Below, piece after piece: positions 3,980 through 29,322 of a stretch of DNA of 36,893 nucleotides (positions within the stretch are counted from its first letter, which is position 1; every line of letters begins with the position of its first letter). The position numbers and the translations under genes were made by a program. The notes beneath the pieces are model-generated. The model was not told the origin of the DNA. It saw nothing but the letters and a program-made list of their open reading frames with translations, and ran no database searches. The DNA comes from Paracoccaceae bacterium (lineage in GTDB: Bacteria > Pseudomonadota > Alphaproteobacteria > Rhodobacterales > Rhodobacteraceae): positions 1 to 36,893 of the forward strand of contig JALQTR010000198.1 in the NCBI GenBank assembly GCA_023260835.1. The letters are read 5' to 3'.

Positions 3980-4059
3980 TCCACGCAACCGGTTCAAAAA
4001 ATACCAGCGCCCCCCTTTCCAAACGCGGATGGTGGGCTTATGTTTATCCTGTTCCTGCA

Positions 4060-4396
4060 AGGGATCTATGAACATAAACGCGCTCGTAATAAGCGGCTCG
4101 GACCCGGGGGCGGTACCCGGCGGCTCCACCAATACCCCCCGATCATTGGCGGGATATGGGGCCGAAATAGGATCGACGAACGTCTAAAGGGGTTAGCTTT
4201 GTTTCGGTGAGATACCACCGTTATCGGTTCGCTAAGTACAATTGCCAATGACAATCGTGCTCCAGTCGCAATGGCCGCGTAAGCAGCCGGAGAGACTGAA
4301 CTTTAAGTCCTTATGCCAAGCAGCGTAAGGCGGGGTCCGCAGGCACCTGGCAACAGAAGCCTGCACTTTCCTTTCCCATTATCCCATGGCATCCTG
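4060..4396 (+). ncRNA. ssrA: tmRNA (ssrA), circularly permuted two-piece form
   Basis: This RNA rescues stalled ribosomes by acting as alanyl-tRNA and as a short message. The acceptor piece comes first: T-stem strands CCGGG (4104-4108) and CCCGG (4116-4120), then CGGCTCC (4121-4127) and the ACCA end at 4131. After an intervening segment the coding piece starts at 4158 with GGGGCCG, which pairs with CGGCTCC and leaves a G.U at the third pair, the alanine identity signal. The tag ORF follows at 4244. A pseudoknot-like GCAGGC/GCCTGC pair lies further on. Such permutation is known in alphaproteobacteria. The 4131, 4158 and tag positions are certain; the outer ends (about 4060 and 4396) are estimates. 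Confidence 0.92.
4244..4282 (+). other. tmRNA proteolysis-tag reading frame
   Basis: The resume codon GCC at 4244 opens the tag ANDNRAPVAMAA, ending at TAA 4280-4282. The AND start and the hydrophobic AA end, read by ClpXP-type proteases, are standard for tmRNA tags, and the ANDNRAPVA form is the one expected in Rhodobacteraceae. Confidence 0.92.
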
Positions 4397-5452: not shown

Positions 5453-7924
5453 ATGACGACATTTATTAATTTTGACCCGAATTTTTTCGAACCGAAGGAT
5501 CCCTTTCCATTTGGATGGCGTTCGACCGCGCTGAATTGGTATATCACCTGGAAAGAAGAAGACGGGAAGCTGATTCAAACTGGGTATGATTTTACAAAAA
5601 CAAACTCCTTTGCAGATGCAACGTTACTGACAGATTATGGCAATCTGGAAAAGGTTGCTGTGAACTGGGACCAGCGCACAGTCAGCCTGTATTACAGCAA
5701 TAGAACGTCACCGCTCGTTGCAAACCTCCCACAACAAGACGCGACCTATGGCACCTATGAAATCAAAGCCAATGCCAGTGAATTCACCCTGACGGATGGC
5801 GATGATACGTTTATCGCAACGGAAGAGACAGAGGTCGATTTTAAAATTGATGCCGGCGGCGGGGATGATCGGGTTGACGTGGGTGCCGGCGATGACACCG
5901 TTGATGGCGGCGCCGGAGACGACCAGATCAACGGTGGCCAGGGCGATGACGACCTGTCTGGTGGCGATGGCAAGGATACCCAGATCGGCAGTGATGGCGA
6001 TGATCTGTTGTTCACTGGTCATGGGATTTATCTGGATGGTGAATTCGAAATTGCGTCGGGCGGCGCGGGGAATGACACGATTTATGGCGGCAACGGCAAG
6101 GATTCTGTCGACGGCGGGGATGGCGATGACCTTATAAATGGGGGCGGGGAAAGCTACACATCTGATTCAGACATCCTGCTTGGGGGCGCGGGCAATGACA
6201 CAATCATTTCAGGGTTTGACCGCACCGATTATTATGAAAGCAAGGGCGACCATCTGGATGGCGGCACTGGGGATGATGTCTTAATTGGTGGCCTAACCGC
6301 AGACACAATTATTGGCGGCGAAGGCGATGATTATGTCGAAACGAATGGCGGCGGATATGCCGATGGACACTTTGATGTAGTGATTGGCGGAACGGGTCTT
6401 GATACCCTGTTGGGTGGCAACGGGCAGGATTATATCGACGGCGGCTTGGACAATGATATCATCAATGGCGGCGGCGAATATGTGACATCCGATTCAGACA
6501 CATTAATTGGGGGCGCGGGCGATGATCACATCACATCTGGCTTCCAAGAAATTAATTATCTTGGCCGCGTTGGTGATTATCTGTACGGTGGCGACGGGTT
6601 TGATACCCTGATCGGGGGGCTAGCCCAAGACTTCATCTTTGGGGGCGACGATGATGATTACATCGAAAGCCAAGGTGGCAGCTTCCTTGATGGATTTGCA
6701 GATAACATAGACGCAGGGGACGGTAATGATACTGCCCTTGGTGGAAACGGGTTGGACATTATCAAAGGCGGCGCGGGTGATGATTACATCAACGGCGGGG
6801 ATGAGGGGCGAACACCTGATTATGACGAACTTTATGGGGATGAAGGAAACGATTTAATTGAGTCAGGTTTCACCCACGCATGGGGCGTTGAGCACAAAGG
6901 TGACTACCTCGACGGTGGTGCAGGAGATGACACGCTAAACGGTGGGACCGCTCAGGACACATTGCACGGTGGGGATGGCAACGATGTGTTGAATGGCGGC
7001 ACCGGAAATGACGTGTTATCCAGCGGCGCTGGTGAAGACGAAGTCTACGGGGGCCATGGTGATGACACCATTTCGGTCGAAGGCGGCAAAAATACTGTCG
7101 ATGGCGAGGCCGGAAATGACAAGATCGAGCTGTCAAACATCACCCTAAACAATACAATACATGCAAGTGACGGCGATGATACAATCATCATCAACAAAAA
7201 TGCAGAAGGTCAGTCCTATAATAACTATATTTATGGGGATGATGGTAATGACAAGATCACCCTGAATGCCGGCGCAACGCGTTTCACGGTTTACGGCGGC
7301 AATGACAATGACACGGTCAAGCTGAACAATACAGAACGCAACTATATCCACACAGGCTCTGGGAATGACAAAGTTGTTTCTCAGGGGGCCAGTCATCTGA
7401 ATGATTTTATAACAGCGGATGGGGACGATGACATTTTCGTTGAAGGCGCATCAAGTAGTAGGGTTTATGCCGGCACTGGGAATGATGTCGTCTATGTCAA
7501 AGGCTCTGGCAGTTCAGACAACACCGTACAGGGTGAGGCTGGTGACGACAGTATTACAATCACCGGCGGTGAAAATACCGTTTCCGGTGGCGACGGCAGC
7601 GATAGGATCAAAATAACCACAACAGACTTCAACACAATTTGGGGTGGTTCCAGCAATGGCGCCAAAGGGTCTGGATCGGATACATTTGTGTTTAGCTACC
7701 TGGTCAATGTTGAGATTAAAGATTTTAACGTCGAAACGGATATCATTGATCTAAGCGAAGCCTATGTTTACAGCTTTGAGGAACTGAAAGATAAGCTGAG
7801 AACCACAGATGATGGTGTCACCCTCTATAACCGTTTTGGCGCTGAAATTTTATTGGCCGGTGTCACCGAAGATGATCTGATCATAGATAATTTCGTCTTT
7901 GATTCAGTGCTCGTTGCGATTTAA
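5453..7924 (+). CDS. RTX (calcium-binding repeat) protein, predicted type I secreted
   Basis: An 823-residue acidic protein dominated by hemolysin-type GGxGxDxxx nonapeptides from about residue 130 to 750. Such repeats fold into calcium-bound beta rolls outside the cell. There is no Sec signal peptide; the C-terminus contains TFVFSYLVNVEIKDFNVETD and a tail ending in hydrophobic residues (DSVLVAI), as in type I secreted RTX proteins. The first ~110 residues (FDPNFFEP..., ALNWYITWKEEDG) match no enzyme domain I know. Residues 185-511 are three 109-residue super-repeats. TAGGAGG precedes ATG 5453 at ideal spacing. No ABC transporter, membrane-fusion or outer-membrane secretion gene is nearby, so export must rely on a system elsewhere. 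Base composition is more A+T-rich than its neighbours. Function unknown; surface layer, adhesin or biofilm roles are guesses. Confidence 0.88.
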   Translation: MTTFINFDPNFFEPKDPFPFGWRSTALNWYITWKEEDGKLIQTGYDFTKTNSFADATLLTDYGNLEKVAVNWDQRTVSLYYSNRTSPLVANLPQQDATYGTYEIKANASEFTLTDGDDTFIATEETEVDFKIDAGGGDDRVDVGAGDDTVDGGAGDDQINGGQGDDDLSGGDGKDTQIGSDGDDLLFTGHGIYLDGEFEIASGGAGNDTIYGGNGKDSVDGGDGDDLINGGGESYTSDSDILLGGAGNDTIISGFDRTDYYESKGDHLDGGTGDDVLIGGLTADTIIGGEGDDYVETNGGGYADGHFDVVIGGTGLDTLLGGNGQDYIDGGLDNDIINGGGEYVTSDSDTLIGGAGDDHITSGFQEINYLGRVGDYLYGGDGFDTLIGGLAQDFIFGGDDDDYIESQGGSFLDGFADNIDAGDGNDTALGGNGLDIIKGGAGDDYINGGDEGRTPDYDELYGDEGNDLIESGFTHAWGVEHKGDYLDGGAGDDTLNGGTAQDTLHGGDGNDVLNGGTGNDVLSSGAGEDEVYGGHGDDTISVEGGKNTVDGEAGNDKIELSNITLNNTIHASDGDDTIIINKNAEGQSYNNYIYGDDGNDKITLNAGATRFTVYGGNDNDTVKLNNTERNYIHTGSGNDKVVSQGASHLNDFITADGDDDIFVEGASSSRVYAGTGNDVVYVKGSGSSDNTVQGEAGDDSITITGGENTVSGGDGSDRIKITTTDFNTIWGGSSNGAKGSGSDTFVFSYLVNVEIKDFNVETDIIDLSEAYVYSFEELKDKLRTTDDGVTLYNRFGAEILLAGVTEDDLIIDNFVFDSVLVAI
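6005..6985 (+). repeat. three tandem 327-base (109-residue) super-repeats in the RTX gene
   Basis: Units at 6005-6331, 6332-6658 and 6659-6985 align without gaps over 109 residues each. Shared marks at the same offset are GGNG.D (offset 28), NGG[GD]E with a following D[SY]D (45-56), SGF (69-71), the GD.L.GG block (81-87) and the GG.[TA][AQ]D block (95-100). DNA identity is clearly lower than protein similarity, so the duplication is old. Confidence 0.85.
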
Positions 7925-21309: not shown

Positions 21310-21714
21310 CTAGATCAGGGGAATAGCCCAGGACATATCATCAACATCGATATCCATCGGTTGATCCACGCGCAAATCACCGTGGCTGCTGATGGCCAGT
21401 GGGGTCGTCAGTTGCAAAACCAGAGCAATTGGGCGGGGATGTGAAAAGCGGCACAAATCCACCAATTGGGTAAATCGATTATTCGCCAAGGTCACTTGCG
21501 CCCGCATCAAAGGGCGGTCAATTGGAATATGCAGCTGGCCAATGCTGGACGTGCCAATCACCGCCCCGCTGCGCAGGCTGATGACGCAAGAGCCACGCGC
21601 AATATTGCTCAGGTCGCAATGCAATTCCAGCTGGGGATCATCGGAAACCGACAGCAACCGCAATTCGGCAGATTGCACAAACATTTGCACGTGATGGCTG
21701 CGATCCCACTGCAT
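21310..21714 (-). CDS. hypothetical protein in the flagellar operon
   Basis: A 134-residue protein that I do not recognise. It begins 3 bases after the fliA stop and ends the minus-strand flagellar operon, so cotranslation with fliA is likely. Composition suggests a beta-rich soluble fold (LRLLSVSDDPQLELHCDL, GAVIGTSSIGQLHIP, PIALVLQLTTPLAI) without signal peptide or membrane segment. It ends in the acidic stretch DIDVDDMSWAIPLI. The reading frame has normal codon use for the region and is probably genuine. Possible roles include a flagellar regulator or accessory factor; nothing in the sequence decides. Confidence 0.65.
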   Translation of the reverse strand: MQWDRSHHVQMFVQSAELRLLSVSDDPQLELHCDLSNIARGSCVISLRSGAVIGTSSIGQLHIPIDRPLMRAQVTLANNRFTQLVDLCRFSHPRPIALVLQLTTPLAISSHGDLRVDQPMDIDVDDMSWAIPLI

Positions 21715-21717
21715 AGG

Positions 21718-22461
21718 TCATTCAAATTCTGCGATGACATCACCATCATCGCCGGTGCGCCGCGCCAACCCACTGCGCAGGTTTAATAAAGCGGCTTTTT
21801 TGATCTGCGATACGCGCCCCGTCGTGACATCCAAAATTTCGGCGATTTCATAAACATTCAGCTCTTCGACGAAGTAAAGCTGCACAACCAAGGCCTCACG
21901 TTCGGACAAATCTTCAAGCGAGGAGCGCAGGGCTGCGCGCAGCTCAACCTTGTTCATTTCTTCCTCGGGCGTGGCGGTCTTGCTGACGAACAAATGCCCG
22001 TAATCATCGTGCACTTCGTCCAAGGATTGATGGCGGTTGGCCTGAAATGCATGCTGCCAGCGATCATATTCTGCGATGCTCAACCCCAATTCTTTCGCAA
22101 CCTCGGCATCTTCAGGCAGACGGTGCAGACGTTTTTGCAACAGCGACGTGGCTTGTTTGACCTTTTGCTGCATTGAAATCGTTGTGCGGCACAGGTTCGA
22201 TGACCGCCGCAGATGATCCACAATGGCCCCGCGTATCCGGATCGATGCATAGTTTGTGAAACTCACCCCGTCCTTTTTCACATAGCGCTGCGCCGCATCC
22301 ACCAAGCCCACGCAGCCGATTTGGATCAGATCCTCGACCTCGACCACGCCGCGCACGCGCGAATGAAAATAATGCGCCAAACGCCGCACCAACCCGATGT
22401 GGGTTTCAACCAGATCCTGTGGATTGGGGCTTTGTTCTGGGTATTTGCCGCTCATCATCAT
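21718..22461 (-). CDS. fliA: flagellar sigma factor FliA (sigma-28)
   Basis: A 247-residue sigma-70 family factor for late flagellar genes. Region 2 is visible in LVRRLAHYFHSRVRGVVEVEDLIQIG, GLVDAAQRYVKKDGVSF and TNYASIRIRGAIVDHLRRS; region 3 follows (LPEDAEVAKELGLSIAEYDRW); region 4 carries LSEREALVVQLYFVEELNVYEIA and the helix-turn-helix DVTTGRVSQIKKAAL. A GGGGGATAACCC leader precedes ATG 22461 and overlaps the flhG end; 3 bases separate the genes. The anti-sigma factor FlgM is encoded in the opposite arm at 29358. Confidence 0.92.
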   Translation of the reverse strand: MMMSGKYPEQSPNPQDLVETHIGLVRRLAHYFHSRVRGVVEVEDLIQIGCVGLVDAAQRYVKKDGVSFTNYASIRIRGAIVDHLRRSSNLCRTTISMQQKVKQATSLLQKRLHRLPEDAEVAKELGLSIAEYDRWQHAFQANRHQSLDEVHDDYGHLFVSKTATPEEEMNKVELRAALRSSLEDLSEREALVVQLYFVEELNVYEIAEILDVTTGRVSQIKKAALLNLRSGLARRTGDDGDVIAEFE

Positions 22462-22464
22462 GGG

Positions 22465-23280
22465 TTATCCCCCTTTGACTTCGGATTGTGGATCGGTTTG
22501 ATCCTGGAAAAAGCGAATACCGTGGTACATATTGCGCGGGGCCTTCATCATCGTGCCCGCGATATTTTGAATGGCCAGTGCTTCGGGCGTGTCCATTCCA
22601 CTGCGCCCCGACAACAGTGGACGGCGCGCCACAACCGATCGGCGCAGCGCGGCTGAAAACGGGATATGCCCCGCGAACGTCAGCTCGACGGGCAGAAATT
22701 TCATCACAATGCCCTGAAATTTGCGGAACTGTTCGCGCGCCTCGGCCGCGTTGCGGGCCATGTTCACCACAATGGCAAACCGCGTCAGGCCGTATTCAAC
22801 ATGCGCGGCTTTGATCATGGAATAGGCATCCATAAAGCTGGTGGGCTCGCCCACGATGGTCACAATCACCTGATCCGCTGCGGCAACAAAATTCAGCGCG
22901 CTATGCGATGCCCCAGCCGGCGCATCGATCAGCAAAATATCCGTATCATCCGCAAGCGCATCCATCGACCGGATCAGCGAAAACCGCGCCCGATCATCCA
23001 GATCCAGCAGATCCACCGTTCCAGACCCGCCAGCAATCAGCTTCACGCCATCAGGGGTCACATCAATCACATCGGCAAGGGCCTTATCCCCATCAAGCAC
23101 ATCGCGCACGGTGTGGCGGGCGTTACAGCCCATCAGAATATGCGCATTGGCCAAGCCAAAATCCGTATCCAGCAGCGCAACGCGCTGCCCCAACTTGCGA
23201 TAGGCCAGCGCCAAATTCACCGCCAGACAGCTTTTGCCAACGCCGCCTTTCCCGCTTGCGATTGTAATTGTTTTTGTCAT
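22465..23280 (-). CDS. flhG: flagellar number regulator FlhG (MinD-like ATPase)
   Basis: A 271-residue ParA/MinD-family ATPase. The deviant Walker A motif GKGGVGKS is at residues 10-17, the DTDFGLANAHILMG stretch follows near residue 38, and the Walker B-like LLIDAPAG lies near residue 115. FlhG limits the number of polar flagella and antagonises FlhF. The start overlaps the flhF stop by 4 bases (ATGA), so the two are translationally coupled. The C-terminus (SAALRRSVVARRPLLSGR) resembles the FlhG ending; an amphipathic membrane-targeting helix is not obvious. Confidence 0.88.
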   Translation of the reverse strand: MTKTITIASGKGGVGKSCLAVNLALAYRKLGQRVALLDTDFGLANAHILMGCNARHTVRDVLDGDKALADVIDVTPDGVKLIAGGSGTVDLLDLDDRARFSLIRSMDALADDTDILLIDAPAGASHSALNFVAAADQVIVTIVGEPTSFMDAYSMIKAAHVEYGLTRFAIVVNMARNAAEAREQFRKFQGIVMKFLPVELTFAGHIPFSAALRRSVVARRPLLSGRSGMDTPEALAIQNIAGTMMKAPRNMYHGIRFFQDQTDPQSEVKGG

Positions 23281-24518
23281 TGCGCGGCCTGCCCTGTGGA
23301 TTGATCCAAAAATTCTGCAATTATGTCATGCTGTGCAGGGCTGATCGTGCCCTTCAGCATATCCGTCCCAGACAGCCAGCCAATGCGCAAACCTGCTTCG
23401 AAAATCCACGCGATTTCTTCGGCGCTGCTTTCGGATTCGTCCAGTTTTACCAAGGCCACTTGGGGCGCCAAATCAGCATAGTCCGCCGCGATGGCCCGAA
23501 TACGGGATTTCGACAGCCCAGCTGGCAGGGCCAAAATAACCGTGATCTGATCGCCATAGAACCGCTCAAGCAGCGCGTCATAGGCATCATGCGCCCCTTT
23601 TGAATTGGCTGGGGCTTCGAAAATAAAACGCTCTGTTTCAATTGGAATGAATTGTGGGTTCAGCGCATTTATTGGGCTATGCATGGCCTGCGCCCCAACG
23701 ATGCGGGACAAATGCCGCATTGGGTTGGCAATGGCTGGGGCCTCTTCGGTCAGCTCGACCATGGTCAGTGCGCTGATGTCACGCATATCTTTAATCAAGC
23801 CTGCCATTTTGGCCGCTAATGTGGTTTTCCCTGCCCCACTTGGCCCGACGATCAGCACCGCAGGAGTGTCCATGGCGCGTTCTGGCTGCGGGGTCAGGAC
23901 CTTACGCGGCAAATCATGTGGAATAGCGGTCGCTGCGGTGGTCGCGGGCGCAGCGGGATCACGCAGCTGTTTAACCAATTCACCGACAATCCCATCCAAA
24001 CGCTCAATGGCCTGAAACACATCGCTGTGCAGGGCTGGTGCATCCGCAATGGCGGGTTTTGCCGGTGCAGACTGCGATGGCACCTGTGGATGGGGCGTTT
24101 GCGCCTGTTCAGAACTGCGCGCCTGGGGTCGGCTGCGCGTTGGGGTTTGCAACTGAACGACATTCTGTGCGCCATGCAGGGCTGATTGCCCCACGGCCGC
24201 AGACATCACGGGCTGTGCGTCTGATTGAATTTCAGCATGGGGATGCACCTGTGCCTGCTGCGCTGCGCGGGCCAGCGGTTCGCGGGGACGGTTCAAAACG
24301 CGTGTATCGGCAATCCCAGTTTTCGCGGCCAACAAATCGTCAAATTTCACCCGATTGGCCCCTTTATCCGCCATGGGCAGATGATCATTTGTGGCCCGAA
24401 TTTCCACCTGACCGTTCTTTTGCTGCGTGGACAAAATAAACGCATCGGCACCCAATTGGCGCATGACCTCATCCATGGCAAGGGCGCTGTCGGGGGCAAG
24501 GACGGTGATTGTGGGCAT
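23277..24518 (-). CDS. flhF: FlhF-like SRP-family GTPase with degenerate G motifs
   Basis: A 413-residue FlhF-like protein, a relative of SRP54 that sets the site of polar flagellum assembly. The N-terminus (TITVLAPDSALAMDEVMRQLGADAFILSTQQKNG is split by low similarity after about residue 35) and the P-loop GPSGAGKTTLAAK near residue 222 fit FlhF. However the usual DTYR (G2) is replaced by ELTEEAP near residue 253, the DTAGR (G3) by FEAPANS near residue 300, while KLDES near residue 358 keeps only part of TKLDE. The Q/P-rich linker (about 80-165) is long. AAAGGAG precedes ATG 24518, 12 bases after flhA. Likely a divergent FlhF; whether it hydrolyses GTP is doubtful. Confidence 0.82.
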   Translation of the reverse strand: MPTITVLAPDSALAMDEVMRQLGADAFILSTQQKNGQVEIRATNDHLPMADKGANRVKFDDLLAAKTGIADTRVLNRPREPLARAAQQAQVHPHAEIQSDAQPVMSAAVGQSALHGAQNVVQLQTPTRSRPQARSSEQAQTPHPQVPSQSAPAKPAIADAPALHSDVFQAIERLDGIVGELVKQLRDPAAPATTAATAIPHDLPRKVLTPQPERAMDTPAVLIVGPSGAGKTTLAAKMAGLIKDMRDISALTMVELTEEAPAIANPMRHLSRIVGAQAMHSPINALNPQFIPIETERFIFEAPANSKGAHDAYDALLERFYGDQITVILALPAGLSKSRIRAIAADYADLAPQVALVKLDESESSAEEIAWIFEAGLRIGWLSGTDMLKGTISPAQHDIIAEFLDQSTGQAAQ

Positions 24519-24530
24519 GGGTCTGCTCCT

Positions 24531-26660
24531 TTACACAAGATCGGGGGTGGGCGCGATGGCAGTGCCATCTTGGCCCGATATGCTGGCAACCACTTCAACG
24601 CGGCGGTTTTCAGGCAATTCGGTGAAGGCCAGAACGATAACCTCTGGCAGATGCGCCCGCACGAAATCGGCAAAGGCGCGGCGAATTTGTGGGGCAACAA
24701 CGATCAAAGCGGCGCGTCCAGATGCCGCCATCTTTTCGCTGGCCTCATTTACAGATCGGATAATTTTTTCGGCCAGTCCGGCATCCAGCACCAATGTTTC
24801 GTCACCATTTTGACGCAAGGTGCGCAGGATCAGCTGTTCCAATTCGGGGCTGAGCGTAATCAGCGGCATGGGTTGACCCAATGGGCTGACCTGCTGAATC
24901 AGCAGCGGTGCAAGCGCAGGGCGCAGGTTTTCAGCCATTTCAACCGCCGTCAGGTTGCGCGGCGCAAGGGTGGACAGCCCCTCGAGTATGCGGCGCAAAT
25001 CCGACACGGGGATACGTTCAGCAAGCAGCGTGCGCATCACAGCGGTCAAAATATGCAGTGGGACCAGCTTTGGCACCGTCGATTGCACCAAATTCGGGCT
25101 TGTTTCGGCCAGCTTATCCAGCAGGGCCTGAACATCATCTTGACCGATAAGCTCTGCCGCGTGTTTTTGCAGCAGCTGGTTCAAATGGGTTGCAATGACG
25201 GAATCAGGTTCGATGATCACGTAATCATTTGCCTCGGCCTCGGCTTCTTGATTGGGGCGAATCCAGGTGGCATCAATGCCAAATGACGGGTCTTTGACAT
25301 CAATCCCTTCCAGATGAACCGCAGACCCACTGCCGGGGATGGCCAGTTTGCGATCTGGATAGACCATATCTTCGCCAACAATCGTTTGACCCACGCGAAT
25401 ACGATATTGGTTTGGCCCCAATGCCAGATCATCGCGAATGCGAACACCCGGCACCACAAAGCCAAGCCCGCGGGATACGTCTTTGCGAATACCTGTGATG
25501 CGGTTCACCAGCGGGCCGCCCTTTGCCTCGTCAACCAAACTGATCAGCCCATACCCGATTTGCAGCGACACGGCGGCATTATCTGTGACGTCATCCAAGG
25601 TCAGGATTTCAGACCCACCTGCCTCTTCTTCGGTTTCGGTATCTTCATCTTCGTCCGGTGCAGCAGCGGCCTGTAATTCGGCCTTGCGCGAGAAATACGC
25701 GGCCGCGCCAGCGATCAGGGCAAAGACGATGAACAGCTCATTCGGCATTCCTGGAACAAGGCCCAAGATCATAATAACAGCCGCCGTTGGGATCCATGCG
25801 CGCGACAGGTTCACCTGACGGCCAATATGTTCGGCCATGTCATGCGTGCTGGACACACGGGTGACGATGATCGCGGTTGCGATGGACAACAGCAGCGATG
25901 GAATTTGCGCAACCAAACCATCACCGATCGACAGCATCACATAGGCCTGCGCCGCAGCGCCCACCGGCATATCATGCTGAGCGATCCCGATGACCAACCC
26001 GCCAATGATGTTGATGGCCAAGATTAACAGGCCAGCCACGGCATCGCCTTTGACGAATTTGGACGCACCGTCCATGGACCCATAGAAATCTGCCTCGGTG
26101 GCGATTTCTTGACGGCGCAAGGTTGCCTCTTCTGGGGTCAAAATGCCCGCGTTCAAATCCGCATCAATCGCCATTTGCTTGCCCGGCATCGCATCAAGCG
26201 TGAAACGCGCCGAGACTTCGGACACGCGGCCCGCGCCTTTGGTAATCACGACCAGATTGATGATGACCAAGATGATAAAGACGAAAATACCAACCGCGTA
26301 ATTCCCCGCCACCACAAAGGCCCCAAAAGCCTGAATAACCTGACCAGCCGCATCCGCGCCCGTATGCCCTTCAGACAAAACAATCCGCGTGGATGCAACG
26401 TTCAGCGCCAGACGCAAAACTGTGGCAAGAAGCAACAGGTTGGGGAAGGATGAAAAGTCGAGCGGACGGTGCGTATGCATCGCCACCATTAGGATCAGCA
26501 GTGACAGTAGGATATTTAGGATAAAAAAGCTGTCCAGCAGCAAGGTCGGCAATGGCAAGACCATCATCGCAACCAGAACCAAAATGCCCAAAGGCATAAC
26601 CGCCCCGCCCAAAGCCGCGCGCACAGGTTCCGGAATCATACGGCCAAGCGTCATTTCCAT
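24531..26660 (-). CDS. flhA: flagellar export apparatus protein FlhA
   Basis: A 709-residue inner-membrane component of the flagellar type III export gate. Eight or so membrane segments occupy roughly residues 20-330 (VLVAMMVLPLPTLLLDSF, ILLSLLILMVAM), with the FHIPEP-family cytoplasmic loop RVSEVSARFTLDAMPGKQMAID near residue 145. An acidic linker (EDEDTETEEEAGG) leads to the C-terminal domain that docks export chaperones (NQYRIRVGQTIVGEDMVYP). GGAGGGG precedes ATG 26660. It is the first gene of the minus-strand arm, behind a perfect sigma-54 promoter at 26805-26819. Confidence 0.95.
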   Translation of the reverse strand: MEMTLGRMIPEPVRAALGGAVMPLGILVLVAMMVLPLPTLLLDSFFILNILLSLLILMVAMHTHRPLDFSSFPNLLLLATVLRLALNVASTRIVLSEGHTGADAAGQVIQAFGAFVVAGNYAVGIFVFIILVIINLVVITKGAGRVSEVSARFTLDAMPGKQMAIDADLNAGILTPEEATLRRQEIATEADFYGSMDGASKFVKGDAVAGLLILAINIIGGLVIGIAQHDMPVGAAAQAYVMLSIGDGLVAQIPSLLLSIATAIIVTRVSSTHDMAEHIGRQVNLSRAWIPTAAVIMILGLVPGMPNELFIVFALIAGAAAYFSRKAELQAAAAPDEDEDTETEEEAGGSEILTLDDVTDNAAVSLQIGYGLISLVDEAKGGPLVNRITGIRKDVSRGLGFVVPGVRIRDDLALGPNQYRIRVGQTIVGEDMVYPDRKLAIPGSGSAVHLEGIDVKDPSFGIDATWIRPNQEAEAEANDYVIIEPDSVIATHLNQLLQKHAAELIGQDDVQALLDKLAETSPNLVQSTVPKLVPLHILTAVMRTLLAERIPVSDLRRILEGLSTLAPRNLTAVEMAENLRPALAPLLIQQVSPLGQPMPLITLSPELEQLILRTLRQNGDETLVLDAGLAEKIIRSVNEASEKMAASGRAALIVVAPQIRRAFADFVRAHLPEVIVLAFTELPENRRVEVVASISGQDGTAIAPTPDLV

Positions 26661-26804
26661 GACAGCCCCTCCGCGTCAAAACACCGACAGACGGGCTGAC
26701 CCGCTGCCATGTATTTGGTGTTTATATCCTTGGCCTGTTGCATTCTTTGCCTTCGGTGGTTGGTGCAGCCGATTTGACCGCAAATTTATATCAGGAATAC
26801 AAAA

Positions 26805-26819
26805 GCAATTCGCGTGCCA
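26805..26819 (-). promoter_or_regulatory. sigma-54 promoter for the flhA operon
   Basis: The minus strand reads TGGCACGCGAATTGC, a complete match to the sigma-54 consensus TGGCAC-N5-TTGC with GG and GC separated by ten bases, followed by TTTT. Transcription would start near 26794 and give a leader of about 130 bases before flhA. Confidence 0.8.
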
Positions 26820-26824
26820 AGTTT

Positions 26825-26865
26825 TGAATAAATATTACAAGTATCTGCTTTATATAAATTATTCA
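26825..26865. repeat. inverted repeat between the two sigma-54 promoters
   Basis: TGAATAA (26825-26831) and TTATTCA (26859-26865) are perfect arms around a very A+T-rich 27-base core. The position between divergent sigma-54 sites would suit an enhancer-binding protein or a DNA-bending protein, but the arms are short. Confidence 0.3.
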
Positions 26866-26901
26866 TCAGATCAGGTGACCCAGCACCATTCACAGAAAAA
26901 C

Positions 26902-26916
26902 TGGCATAGATCCTGC
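26902..26916 (+). promoter_or_regulatory. candidate sigma-54 promoter for the flgP-flgT-flgA-flgM arm
   Basis: TGGCAT-AGATC-CTGC keeps GG and GC ten bases apart and differs from TGGCAC-N5-TTGC at two positions. It lies 43 bases before the lipoprotein start. My recollection is that flagellar sigma-54 promoters in R. sphaeroides favour CTGC at -12; I could not verify this. Confidence 0.55.
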
Positions 26917-26959
26917 AAGACCCGGGCCAAGAACGCACCCCTGTTAGGAGACTGCACCA

Positions 26960-27469
26960 ATGATACAAACCCGAATTATTGCTCTGATCGCAGGGCTTGG
27001 ACTGACGGCTGGCTGTATGTACATGCCCATGACAACCACCGCCAGCATGGCCAGCAACAGCCCAGAAGCCACAGAACTGCAACGCACAGCAAGTGCCATG
27101 CCTGCCCCACCCGCAGTGCAATCGGTGAAACGCACTGTCCCGACAATTAACGGGGTGGGCTATGCGATTGTGTCGGTCCAGCCGGGCAAAAACCTGAACC
27201 AACGCCGCCTGTTGGCCATACAGGTGGCCCGCGCCGAAGCCATGCGCAATCTGGCGGAACAAATCCATGGATTGAATGTCGATGGCAAAACATCGATTGC
27301 CGAGGCCGTTTTGCAAAGCGATACATTGCGCACCGCCGTATCCGGCACCATCCGCGGCGCACGCACCGTAAAAATCGCCCCCAAAGGCAGTGATACCTAT
27401 GAAGTGCGACTGGAAGTTGACCGTGCCATGATTGATCAAATCCTGCGCATGGCGCGCCGGATCGGATAA
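26960..27469 (+). CDS. LPP20-family flagellar lipoprotein, FlgP-like
   Basis: A 169-residue predicted outer-membrane lipoprotein. A short signal peptide ends in the lipobox LTAGC, placing the lipidated cysteine at residue 19. The domain that follows (GVGYAIVSVQPGKNLNQRRLLAIQVARAEA is the start, then MRNLAEQIHGLNVDG) has the LPP20 pattern also found in FlgP, which forms the basal-disk or H/T-ring-associated structure around polar flagella. TTAGGAG precedes ATG 26960. It opens the plus-strand flagellar arm and is followed 7 bases later by a FlgT-like gene, the same partnership as in vibrios. Confidence 0.75.
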   Translation: MIQTRIIALIAGLGLTAGCMYMPMTTTASMASNSPEATELQRTASAMPAPPAVQSVKRTVPTINGVGYAIVSVQPGKNLNQRRLLAIQVARAEAMRNLAEQIHGLNVDGKTSIAEAVLQSDTLRTAVSGTIRGARTVKIAPKGSDTYEVRLEVDRAMIDQILRMARRIG

Positions 27470-27476
27470 GTCGAAT

Positions 27477-28616
27477 ATGCGGTTGTTCTGGACCATATGC
27501 GCCTGCGCCCTGCTGATCATGCCTTTGGCAGATCGCGCAGCTGCGGCCGTGGTGGTGACGGTCACGGGGCAAGCCGTTGACACGGGCGTTGGCGGAAAAG
27601 ATCAAACCCGGCGCCGGGCCTTGGAGGATGCGCTCTATCAGGCGGCACTGATGGGCGGGGCATCTGTTGATGGGATCACTGTGGTTGATAATGCCGTGCT
27701 CAGCGTCAATCAAACCCGCATTATGCCCAAAGCGCAGGTTCTGGATTATGCCGTTGTGCAAGAAACGCGCGAGGATGGGTTTTTCCGGCTAACAATCAAA
27801 GCGGTGGTTGGCGATGCCCCAAAGCCCGCCATCTGCGAAAGACGCAGCCAATTGCACGTTGTGCAATATGCGCCACAATTACAGCTGGACCCTCGTCTGC
27901 CGGCAAAACTGGGCGCGACATTGGATGCGCTGCAAGCGGCGTATTATGATGGGATGAGCGCCTTATCCTATGTTCAAACAACCCAAATGCAGAAAGCCCA
28001 GCGCCCAGCGCAGTACAAGCCACGTATCCAGGCCGCTTTTGATTACACCAGTCTGACCCGCGGCACGCCACAGCAAATCTCGCCAGATACAGATGAAGAA
28101 TTCACCATCACAGCCGCCATTGCCCTGCGCCAAGGGCCCCGGCCAAATGCGATCAAACCGATGCGGCAGCTGACTTTGGATTTCACTGCCTTTATCGCGT
28201 CGCCGCAAAAATATGGCCAACCCCAGCGGGTACATCTGTCCAAAAACTTCAAATATGCGTTTGTAACGGGCAGCAATACACTGGACACATTGGCAAAGCC
28301 AGATTGGCAAAAGCTGACGCGGGTTCTGCAAGCGGAAATCATGTCAGCCATGGCAGACCGGTTCGACGCCATCAGTTGCGCCCCATTAAAGGTCAAATTG
28401 ACATTGCAAGATGGCGCATTGCAAATCCCCTTTGGTGCCGAAAATGGTATACAGGCCGGCTGGCTGGCCTATGTTCAGGCCCCAAACGGGCGATACACTG
28501 TTTTAGAGCTGACCAAACTGGCCCAAAATACCGCCCAGTTGCGCCCATTAAATCCCCAATCTGGCCTGTCAGAATTGGACGGAAAGCACATCACCTTTAT
28601 GGAATTGGATGGGTGA
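27477..28616 (+). CDS. flgT: FlgT-like flagellar assembly protein
   Basis: A 379-residue exported protein. A Sec signal peptide covers about residues 1-23 (LFWTICACALLIMPLADRAAAA). The N-terminal domain (VVTVTGQAV, then QTRRRALEDALYQAALMGGASV) matches the FlgT N-terminal fold that contacts the H ring in Vibrio; a distant FlgT needed for rotation is known in Rhodobacter sphaeroides. The middle and end (SYVQTTQMQKAQ, AENGIQAGWLAYVQAPNGRYTVLEL) are less conserved, with an SH3-like C-terminus plausible. I chose ATG 27477, seven bases after the preceding stop, since the longer frame lacks a signal peptide at its N-terminus. Confidence 0.7.
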   Translation: MRLFWTICACALLIMPLADRAAAAVVVTVTGQAVDTGVGGKDQTRRRALEDALYQAALMGGASVDGITVVDNAVLSVNQTRIMPKAQVLDYAVVQETREDGFFRLTIKAVVGDAPKPAICERRSQLHVVQYAPQLQLDPRLPAKLGATLDALQAAYYDGMSALSYVQTTQMQKAQRPAQYKPRIQAAFDYTSLTRGTPQQISPDTDEEFTITAAIALRQGPRPNAIKPMRQLTLDFTAFIASPQKYGQPQRVHLSKNFKYAFVTGSNTLDTLAKPDWQKLTRVLQAEIMSAMADRFDAISCAPLKVKLTLQDGALQIPFGAENGIQAGWLAYVQAPNGRYTVLELTKLAQNTAQLRPLNPQSGLSELDGKHITFMELDG

Positions 28617-28617
28617 T

Positions 28618-29322
28618 ATGCTTCTGCGCTGGCTTTTATTTATAATCCTATTGATGGGATCAGCAGCCCGGGCGTCAGATCCCGTGACGGGTGCAGATAT
28701 CCAAACCGCGATTGCAGCCGCGCTGAAGCATCAGGGGTTAACAGGGCAGGCCATGATCCACCCAGCGCGCCATTATTACCCCTGTGACCATGATTTAATT
28801 GTCCTGCCCCGATTTGAAGACAAATGGGGCCTGCTGCGTGTGACCTGCCCCGATGATCCCGCATGGGACATCACAGTCCGCGTCAAAACCCGCAAAGCAG
28901 ACCAAGAAGACCAACAAACCACCCCAGATGCCCCGCAGATGGTGCTGGCCCTGCGCACAGCGCTGGCTCGCGGGGATGTGATTACGGCAGATATGTTGGC
29001 GTTCACCCCAACGGGGCAGGATATTGCCTTGGGGTATTTCACCAACCCCGATGATGTGATTGGCCGGCGCATGGCAAAACCGCTGGGTATTGGCCGCCCG
29101 CTGCAACGGCGGCATTTGGAAACCGATTGGATGATCCATGAGGACAGCCCATTGATCATTGCCTCGATCATTGGGGCAATTGAAATAACGGCCAATGGCC
29201 GCGCGCTTGAAAACGGCCAATTTGGTGATATAATAGAGGTTATGAACCTTACTTCTGGCAAGAAAATCAAGGCCATAGTAAAAAGTTCAAAAAAAGTTGC
29301 AACTGTGGCTAACATGAACTGA
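28618..29322 (+). CDS. flgA: flagellar P-ring assembly chaperone FlgA
   Basis: A 234-residue periplasmic chaperone for the flagellar P ring. A signal peptide (LLRWLLFIILLMGSAARA) is followed by an N-terminal region with two cysteines (YYPCDHD, RVTCPDD), then the SAF domain: ALARGDVITADML, DVIGRRMAKPLGIGRPLQ, and a final segment with NGQFGDIIEVMNLTSGKKIKA. Full length for FlgA. Start ATG 28618 is one base past the flgT stop; an overlapping ATG at 28609 is an alternative. Confidence 0.9.
   Translation: MLLRWLLFIILLMGSAARASDPVTGADIQTAIAAALKHQGLTGQAMIHPARHYYPCDHDLIVLPRFEDKWGLLRVTCPDDPAWDITVRVKTRKADQEDQQTTPDAPQMVLALRTALARGDVITADMLAFTPTGQDIALGYFTNPDDVIGRRMAKPLGIGRPLQRRHLETDWMIHEDSPLIIASIIGAIEITANGRALENGQFGDIIEVMNLTSGKKIKAIVKSSKKVATVANMN

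Follow-up and report, generated by a model that had tools for sequence, protein, structure and literature searches.

The window, i.e. the whole 36,893-nucleotide stretch of DNA analysed here, is contig C108 of a 2.1-Mb assembly in 233 contigs that is 85% complete. Two sets of flagellar genes diverge from a 299-bp intergenic region within it. On the minus strand lie flhA, which encodes the flagellar export gate (24531-26660; TIGR01398, 807.8 bits with a cut-off of 772.1), an flhF-like gene (23277-24518; TIGR03499 at E=8.8e-14, below the cut-off), a gene for an FlhG/FleN-like MinD-family ATPase (22465-23280), fliA for sigma-28 (21718-22461; TIGR02479 over the cut-off) and a gene for a 134-aa protein of unknown function (21310-21714) that adjoins fliA also in the related loci L042, L044, L167 and L168. 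FlhF has kept its N-terminal part but has diverged strongly in the GTPase part; for the loci of the sister group L169-L174 the FlhF match is limited to the first ~45 residues at most, and the interval from flhA to fliA yielded no FlhG.

The plus-strand arm starts with the gene that the preliminary description had called FlgP-like. This assignment is supported by an LPP20 domain and by a match to the solved FlgP chain 8z5n (E=5.5e-13), and we name the gene flgP (26960-27469, outer-membrane ring lipoprotein). It is followed by flgT for the H-ring protein (27432-28616; FlgT_N, E=7.4e-13), whose start codon is uncertain and whose frame overlaps flgP, and by flgA for the P-ring chaperone (28609-29322; ChapFlgA, TIGR03170 over the cut-off). 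Elsewhere in the window a permuted tmRNA gene with the tag peptide ANDNRAPVAMAA is predicted at 4039-4373, and 5453-7924 encodes an 823-aa protein with many RTX calcium-binding repeats.

Back-to-back sigma-54 sites between flhA and flgP

The preliminary description had reported TGGCAC-N5-TTGC on the minus strand ahead of flhA and TGGCAT-N5-CTGC on the plus strand ahead of flgP, and both elements are present. The predicted flhA promoter TGGCACGCGAATTGCT (26804-26819, minus strand) matches TGGCACG-N4-TTGCW at 12/12 positions, is the only such match in the window and lies 144 nt upstream of the flhA ATG at 26660. From the usual 12-base distance the flhA transcript would start at ~26793 and carry a 133-nt leader. 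The predicted flgP promoter TGGCATAGATCCTGCA (26902-26917, plus strand) consists of the 15-base site TGGCATAGATCCTGC plus an A. This site is separated from the flgP ATG at 26960 by 43 nt, and transcription is predicted to start at ~26928. It is less canonical (TGGCAT, CTGC) and reaches a score of 19.7 with a PWM trained on relatives only. The -24 GG and -12 GC elements that define a sigma-54 promoter are in place, with the spacing of TGGCAC-N5-TTGC. No sigma-70-like promoter was found in 26600-27000. A one-mismatch sigma-54-like sequence, TGGCCCGGGTCTTGCA (26914-26929, minus strand), shares positions with the flgP promoter of the other strand, and similar overlaps exist in L169 and L173; conserved letters around the flgP start could have produced it by chance.

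The number of sites in the window is not above chance and was rejected as evidence: TGGCAY-N5-YTGC matches twice in 36.9 kb, with a mean of 1.25 in shuffles and at least two matches in 32 of 100. The back-to-back arrangement, by comparison, appeared in none of 2000 dinucleotide shuffles of the 299-bp region. In each of 13 related loci 0 to 1 of 2000 shuffles contained the pair, while the real sequence contained it in all 13, four of which fit only when the pattern is relaxed slightly, the base before TGC being other than C or T. Genome-wide, the loose pattern occurs 41 times, mostly within genes, and the strict TGGCACG-N4-TTGC has only three occurrences in 2.1 Mb, all of them ahead of flagellar genes (flhA, flgG and fliO).

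The promoter pair is common to one clade

The 13 further loci were collected by an FlhA search of the genome contigs and 150 genomes of the same family, with a gamma-like FlhA as the criterion. Together with the window this gives 14 alphaproteobacterial loci, which cover nine further genera of the family, two named Rhodobacteraceae/Paracoccaceae MAGs, SAR116 and one more alphaproteobacterium. In all 13 related loci flhA is divergent from flgP and, wherever the contig reaches, also from flgT and flgA (the L170 contig ends after flgP). A sigma-54 site faces each of flhA and flgP in 14/14 loci, compared with about none in shuffles, in good agreement with the earlier proposal that divergent sigma-54 promoters control both flagellar arms, a proposal with a stronger basis than was claimed for it.

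In a maximum-likelihood tree of FlhA, in which the Cereibacter sphaeroides sequence is not present under its own name, the 14 loci group together (support 100/100). The group belongs to the gamma/beta side and is separate from the FlhA that alphaproteobacteria inherited vertically. As one clade shares both the flagellum and the promoter pair, it appears that the promoters have remained linked to the genes.

Several individual loci deserve mention. L044 (SAR116) and L045 (the other alphaproteobacterium) have the same flagellar arrangement and the same promoter pair. The Porticoccaceae MAG locus L098 contributes the nearest gamma FlhA in the tree sample, sister to the alphaproteobacterial clade; its flhA and flgP are divergent, and of the two only flhA is faced by a sigma-54 site. 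L098 is possibly a donor-side relative or a mis-binned contig. Genome G077 (L170) carries a perfect divergent pair on a contig that ends just after flgP; neither rpoN nor FleQ was found in this genome, which is rated 100% complete, and an assembly gap is possible.

Sigma factor, activators and further sites

The preliminary description had proposed a search for rpoN and had implied a FleQ-like activator. The genome encodes a single intact rpoN (C32:8592-10055) with the activator-interacting (AID), core-binding (CBD) and DNA-binding (DBD) domains all present. It shares 47-49% identity with the copies inside the flagellar clusters of G045, G039, G098 and G105, compared with 36-43% for most copies elsewhere. 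A FleQ-like activator (C228:7503-8645) combines Sigma54_activat (AAA+) and HTH_8 domains without a receiver domain and is 49-61% identical to EBPs within the clusters of relatives, its best relatives being in the flagellar clusters of G045, G105, G051, G039 and G098. In addition, a FleT-like activator (C191:8750-9970), an AAA+ protein without HTH, directly precedes fliE-fliF-fliG-fliH-fliI. One FlhA and one FliG were found, and no second flagellar set was seen, in this 85%-complete assembly.

Scanning the other flagellar operons, as had also been suggested, revealed further sigma-54 sites before flgG and the next two genes (C78:639), fliO-fliP (C199:1114), fliK (C191:2800), a hook/rod gene (C163:1728) and two transcription units near fliS (C191:11787 and 13113). 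The whole genome was scanned by pattern. The PWM trained on relatives only was applied to ~250 kb of chosen contigs, where it gave 15 sites of at least 15 bits compared with none in the reversed control, densities that are biased upward as the contigs were partly site-bearing. In the related genome G045, flgP, flhA, flgB, flgG, a hook/rod gene and fliK are each preceded by such a site, and an additional one precedes fliP. The genome studied here showed no sigma-54 site ahead of its own fleT. The strong site at C191:13113-13127 (minus strand, G000, locus L122) precedes an ORF of ~56 codons near fliS, and in G045 a site at C1:834783 (plus strand) is followed by a similar small ORF at the corresponding place, also close to fliS; the ORF possibly encodes a small flagellar protein of unknown function.

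A FleQ-box-like palindrome in the flhA leader

De novo motif search in 41 flagellar sigma-54 regions with the sites masked yielded the palindrome YGTCAaaatttTGACR with a log-likelihood of 77.7, compared with a maximum of 46.0 in 16 shuffled sets, although such shuffles overstate the significance for the alphaproteobacterial set because the regions are homologous. A palindromic model of width 20 returned the same core, while width 12 and non-palindromic models gave weaker or related motifs. The palindrome matches the FleQ consensus sequences GTCaNTAAAtTGAC and GTCAaAAAAtTGAC published for Pseudomonas, where the motif alone is a poor predictor of binding (PMC6120874).

Two copies are found at the 5' end of flhA. 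The first, CGTCAAAACACCGACA (26674-26689), is placed within the flhA leader, on the downstream side of the promoter, with its centre at ~+111 from the predicted flhA start and at -246 from that of flgP. The second, CGTCATTTCCATGACA (26649-26664), is located 25 bp from the first, over the flhA ATG (+136 and -271, respectively); it overlaps codons, so that its conservation may be partly coding. L166 (+112/+137) and L167 (+118/+143) have the same 25-bp tandem, and the flhA leaders of L042, L044, L045, L168 and L172 contain boxes singly or in pairs. In the leaders of L169, L170, L171, L173, L174 and L043 the box is missing or weak.

Better evidence for the motif than the shuffles comes from boxes outside the training set and from gammaproteobacterial leaders. 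Out-of-sample boxes lie before fleQ (C228:8692), rpoN (C32:10127) and fleT (C191:10065), and in four relatives boxes are found 128-161 bp upstream of the predicted fleT starts. The motif is present in 10 of 75 gamma/beta flhA leaders compared with 19 of 1411 background windows (~10x), in several cases at +22 to +24. The palindrome also precedes flgG and fliO. The boxes before fleQ and rpoN suggest that these two genes may themselves be FleQ targets. Over the whole genome the bare pattern YGTCR-N6-YGACR shows no enrichment (26 places compared with 50 for the reversed control), and thus only placement and the weighted motif count as evidence. Another FleQ-box-like sequence, CGTCACCATTTTGACG (24800-24815), lies within flhA ~282 bases before flhF, with no good sigma-54 site seen beside it; in P. 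putida a FleQ-dependent flhF promoter is found at a like place (PMC6424431).

Discussion

What the DNA shows directly is the two sites with their conservation, the regulator genes and the motif; control of both arms by sigma-54 and FleQ is well supported at this level. Very probably, the pair drives flhA-flhF-flhG-fliA and flgP-flgT-flgA under a FleQ-type activator, which probably has a FleT-type partner. The single RpoN would direct RNA polymerase to both back-to-back sites, the minus site starting the flhA-flhF-flhG-fliA operon and the plus site the flgP-flgT-flgA operon. A FleQ-type AAA+ activator would then open both promoters, probably joined by the FleT-type partner lacking a DNA-binding domain, as in C. 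sphaeroides Fla1. We infer promoter activity, binding of FleQ, a FleQ/FleT complex and sharing of the enhancer from these features.

FleQ would most likely bind the palindromic boxes in the flhA leader. Relative to the flhA promoter the boxes are on the downstream side, an arrangement that flhA leaders of gammaproteobacteria show as well, and relative to the flgP promoter they are 200-270 bp upstream, which could allow both arms to share one enhancer. We tentatively propose that the tandem site might be this single enhancer, acting from downstream on flhA (+111/+136) and from far upstream on flgP (-246/-271), with FleQ also controlling fleQ and rpoN; we regard this as possible rather than probable. 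It is likewise possible, if somewhat doubtful, that each promoter has its own activator site, the leader box serving flhA only and flgP being activated from a different, undetected FleQ/FleT site. This variant is compatible with the sigma-54/FleQ core of the mechanism. It would fit C. sphaeroides, where one promoter class (class II) is activated by FleQ alone and another (class III) by FleQ/FleT, FleQ activating the operon of fleT and fliEFGHIJ and FleQ/FleT the later genes (PMC7277832, PMC11999139), and also the loci L169-L174, where the flhA-leader box is mostly missing though the promoter pair remains. However, our motif search detected no second conserved motif near flgP.

The preliminary description had considered another element suited to an enhancer or bending protein, the 7-base A+T-rich inverted repeat TGAATAA/TTATTCA between the promoters (26825-26831/26859-26865). 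The repeat exists, and in the window the DNA between the sites is A+T-rich, so that real sigma-54 promoters could be combined with FleQ or an IHF-like bending protein bound at this position. However, the repeat belongs to one of 19 inverted repeats (6 bases or longer) present in the 299 bp, it is not conserved, and the related loci have no conserved element between the two sites. The inter-site stretch is G+C-rich in other loci and spans only 35-42 bases in L042, L045, L166, L167 and L173, which would leave little room for an activator between two holoenzymes, and a better motif, the FleQ-box-like palindrome, is located elsewhere. We therefore consider an enhancer between the promoters very unlikely and reject the repeat in this role; the enhancer is probably the FleQ box inside the flhA leader.

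That CtrA with a vegetative or sigma-28 promoter runs the genes and the sigma-54-like sites are relics would follow the rule for vertically inherited fla1-type flagella (PMC12363192), but is hardly credible and was rejected given that the sites are kept in 14/14 diverged loci, that rpoN, FleQ and FleT are all present, that no CtrA-like box (TTAA-N7-TTAA with at most one mismatch) occurs in the intergenic region 26660-26960, and that FlhA falls on the gamma-type side of the tree, outside the vertical alphaproteobacterial clade.

The sigma-54/FleQ system described here is related to Fla1 of Cereibacter (Rhodobacter) sphaeroides, for which the present name is fla3-type, and is a member of the known sigma-54/FleQ/FleT kind, in line with the resemblance to Fla1 pointed out earlier. 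The fla3-type accounts for 8% of the Rhodobacterales flagellar sets counted, while the common fla1-type is CtrA-controlled (PMC12363192, Tomasch et al. 2025). Both systems have a gamma-like flagellar set with FlgP and FlgT, RpoN, a FleQ with AAA+ and HTH domains, an HTH-less FleT heading fliEFGHI and sigma-54 sites before operons. The same divergent pair is present in G051, which like C. sphaeroides has four rpoN copies. In contrast to Fla1, one rpoN is seen here instead of four, rpoN and fleQ lie on contigs showing no flagellar neighbours, FlhG is kept, and no second flagellar set is seen in the 85%-complete genome; the flhA leader carries FleQ boxes, whereas the G051-type group is mostly without them.

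The Pseudomonas flhA-flhF-fleN-fliA operon, controlled by FleQ and sigma-54 (PMC6424431), shares the gene order, the sigma-54 promoter before flhA and a FleQ-box-like palindrome downstream of this promoter. Unlike in Pseudomonas, flgP-flgT-flgA is divergent from flhA, FleQ is without the N-terminal receiver-like domain and the box is further downstream (+111/+136 compared with ~+22 to +24 in several gamma loci). The archetypal CtrA-controlled fla1-type of Rhodobacterales such as Phaeobacter inhibens is found in related hosts but has FlhA of another clade and relies on another sigma factor and another activator. Flagellar promoters are arranged divergently elsewhere too, for example in C. sphaeroides Fla2 (PMC6180460).

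The new content is modest and consists of the deep conservation of the divergent pair together with a predicted FleQ box and its targets. A gamma-like sigma-54/FleQ flagellum with a fixed divergent flhA/flgP pair is common to one clade that extends from Rhodobacteraceae to SAR116-type bacteria, and a testable FleQ box, on the downstream side of the flhA promoter, is predicted for these bacteria. If the shared enhancer is true, the export gate and the outer rings would be on one switch in a horizontally acquired alphaproteobacterial flagellum.
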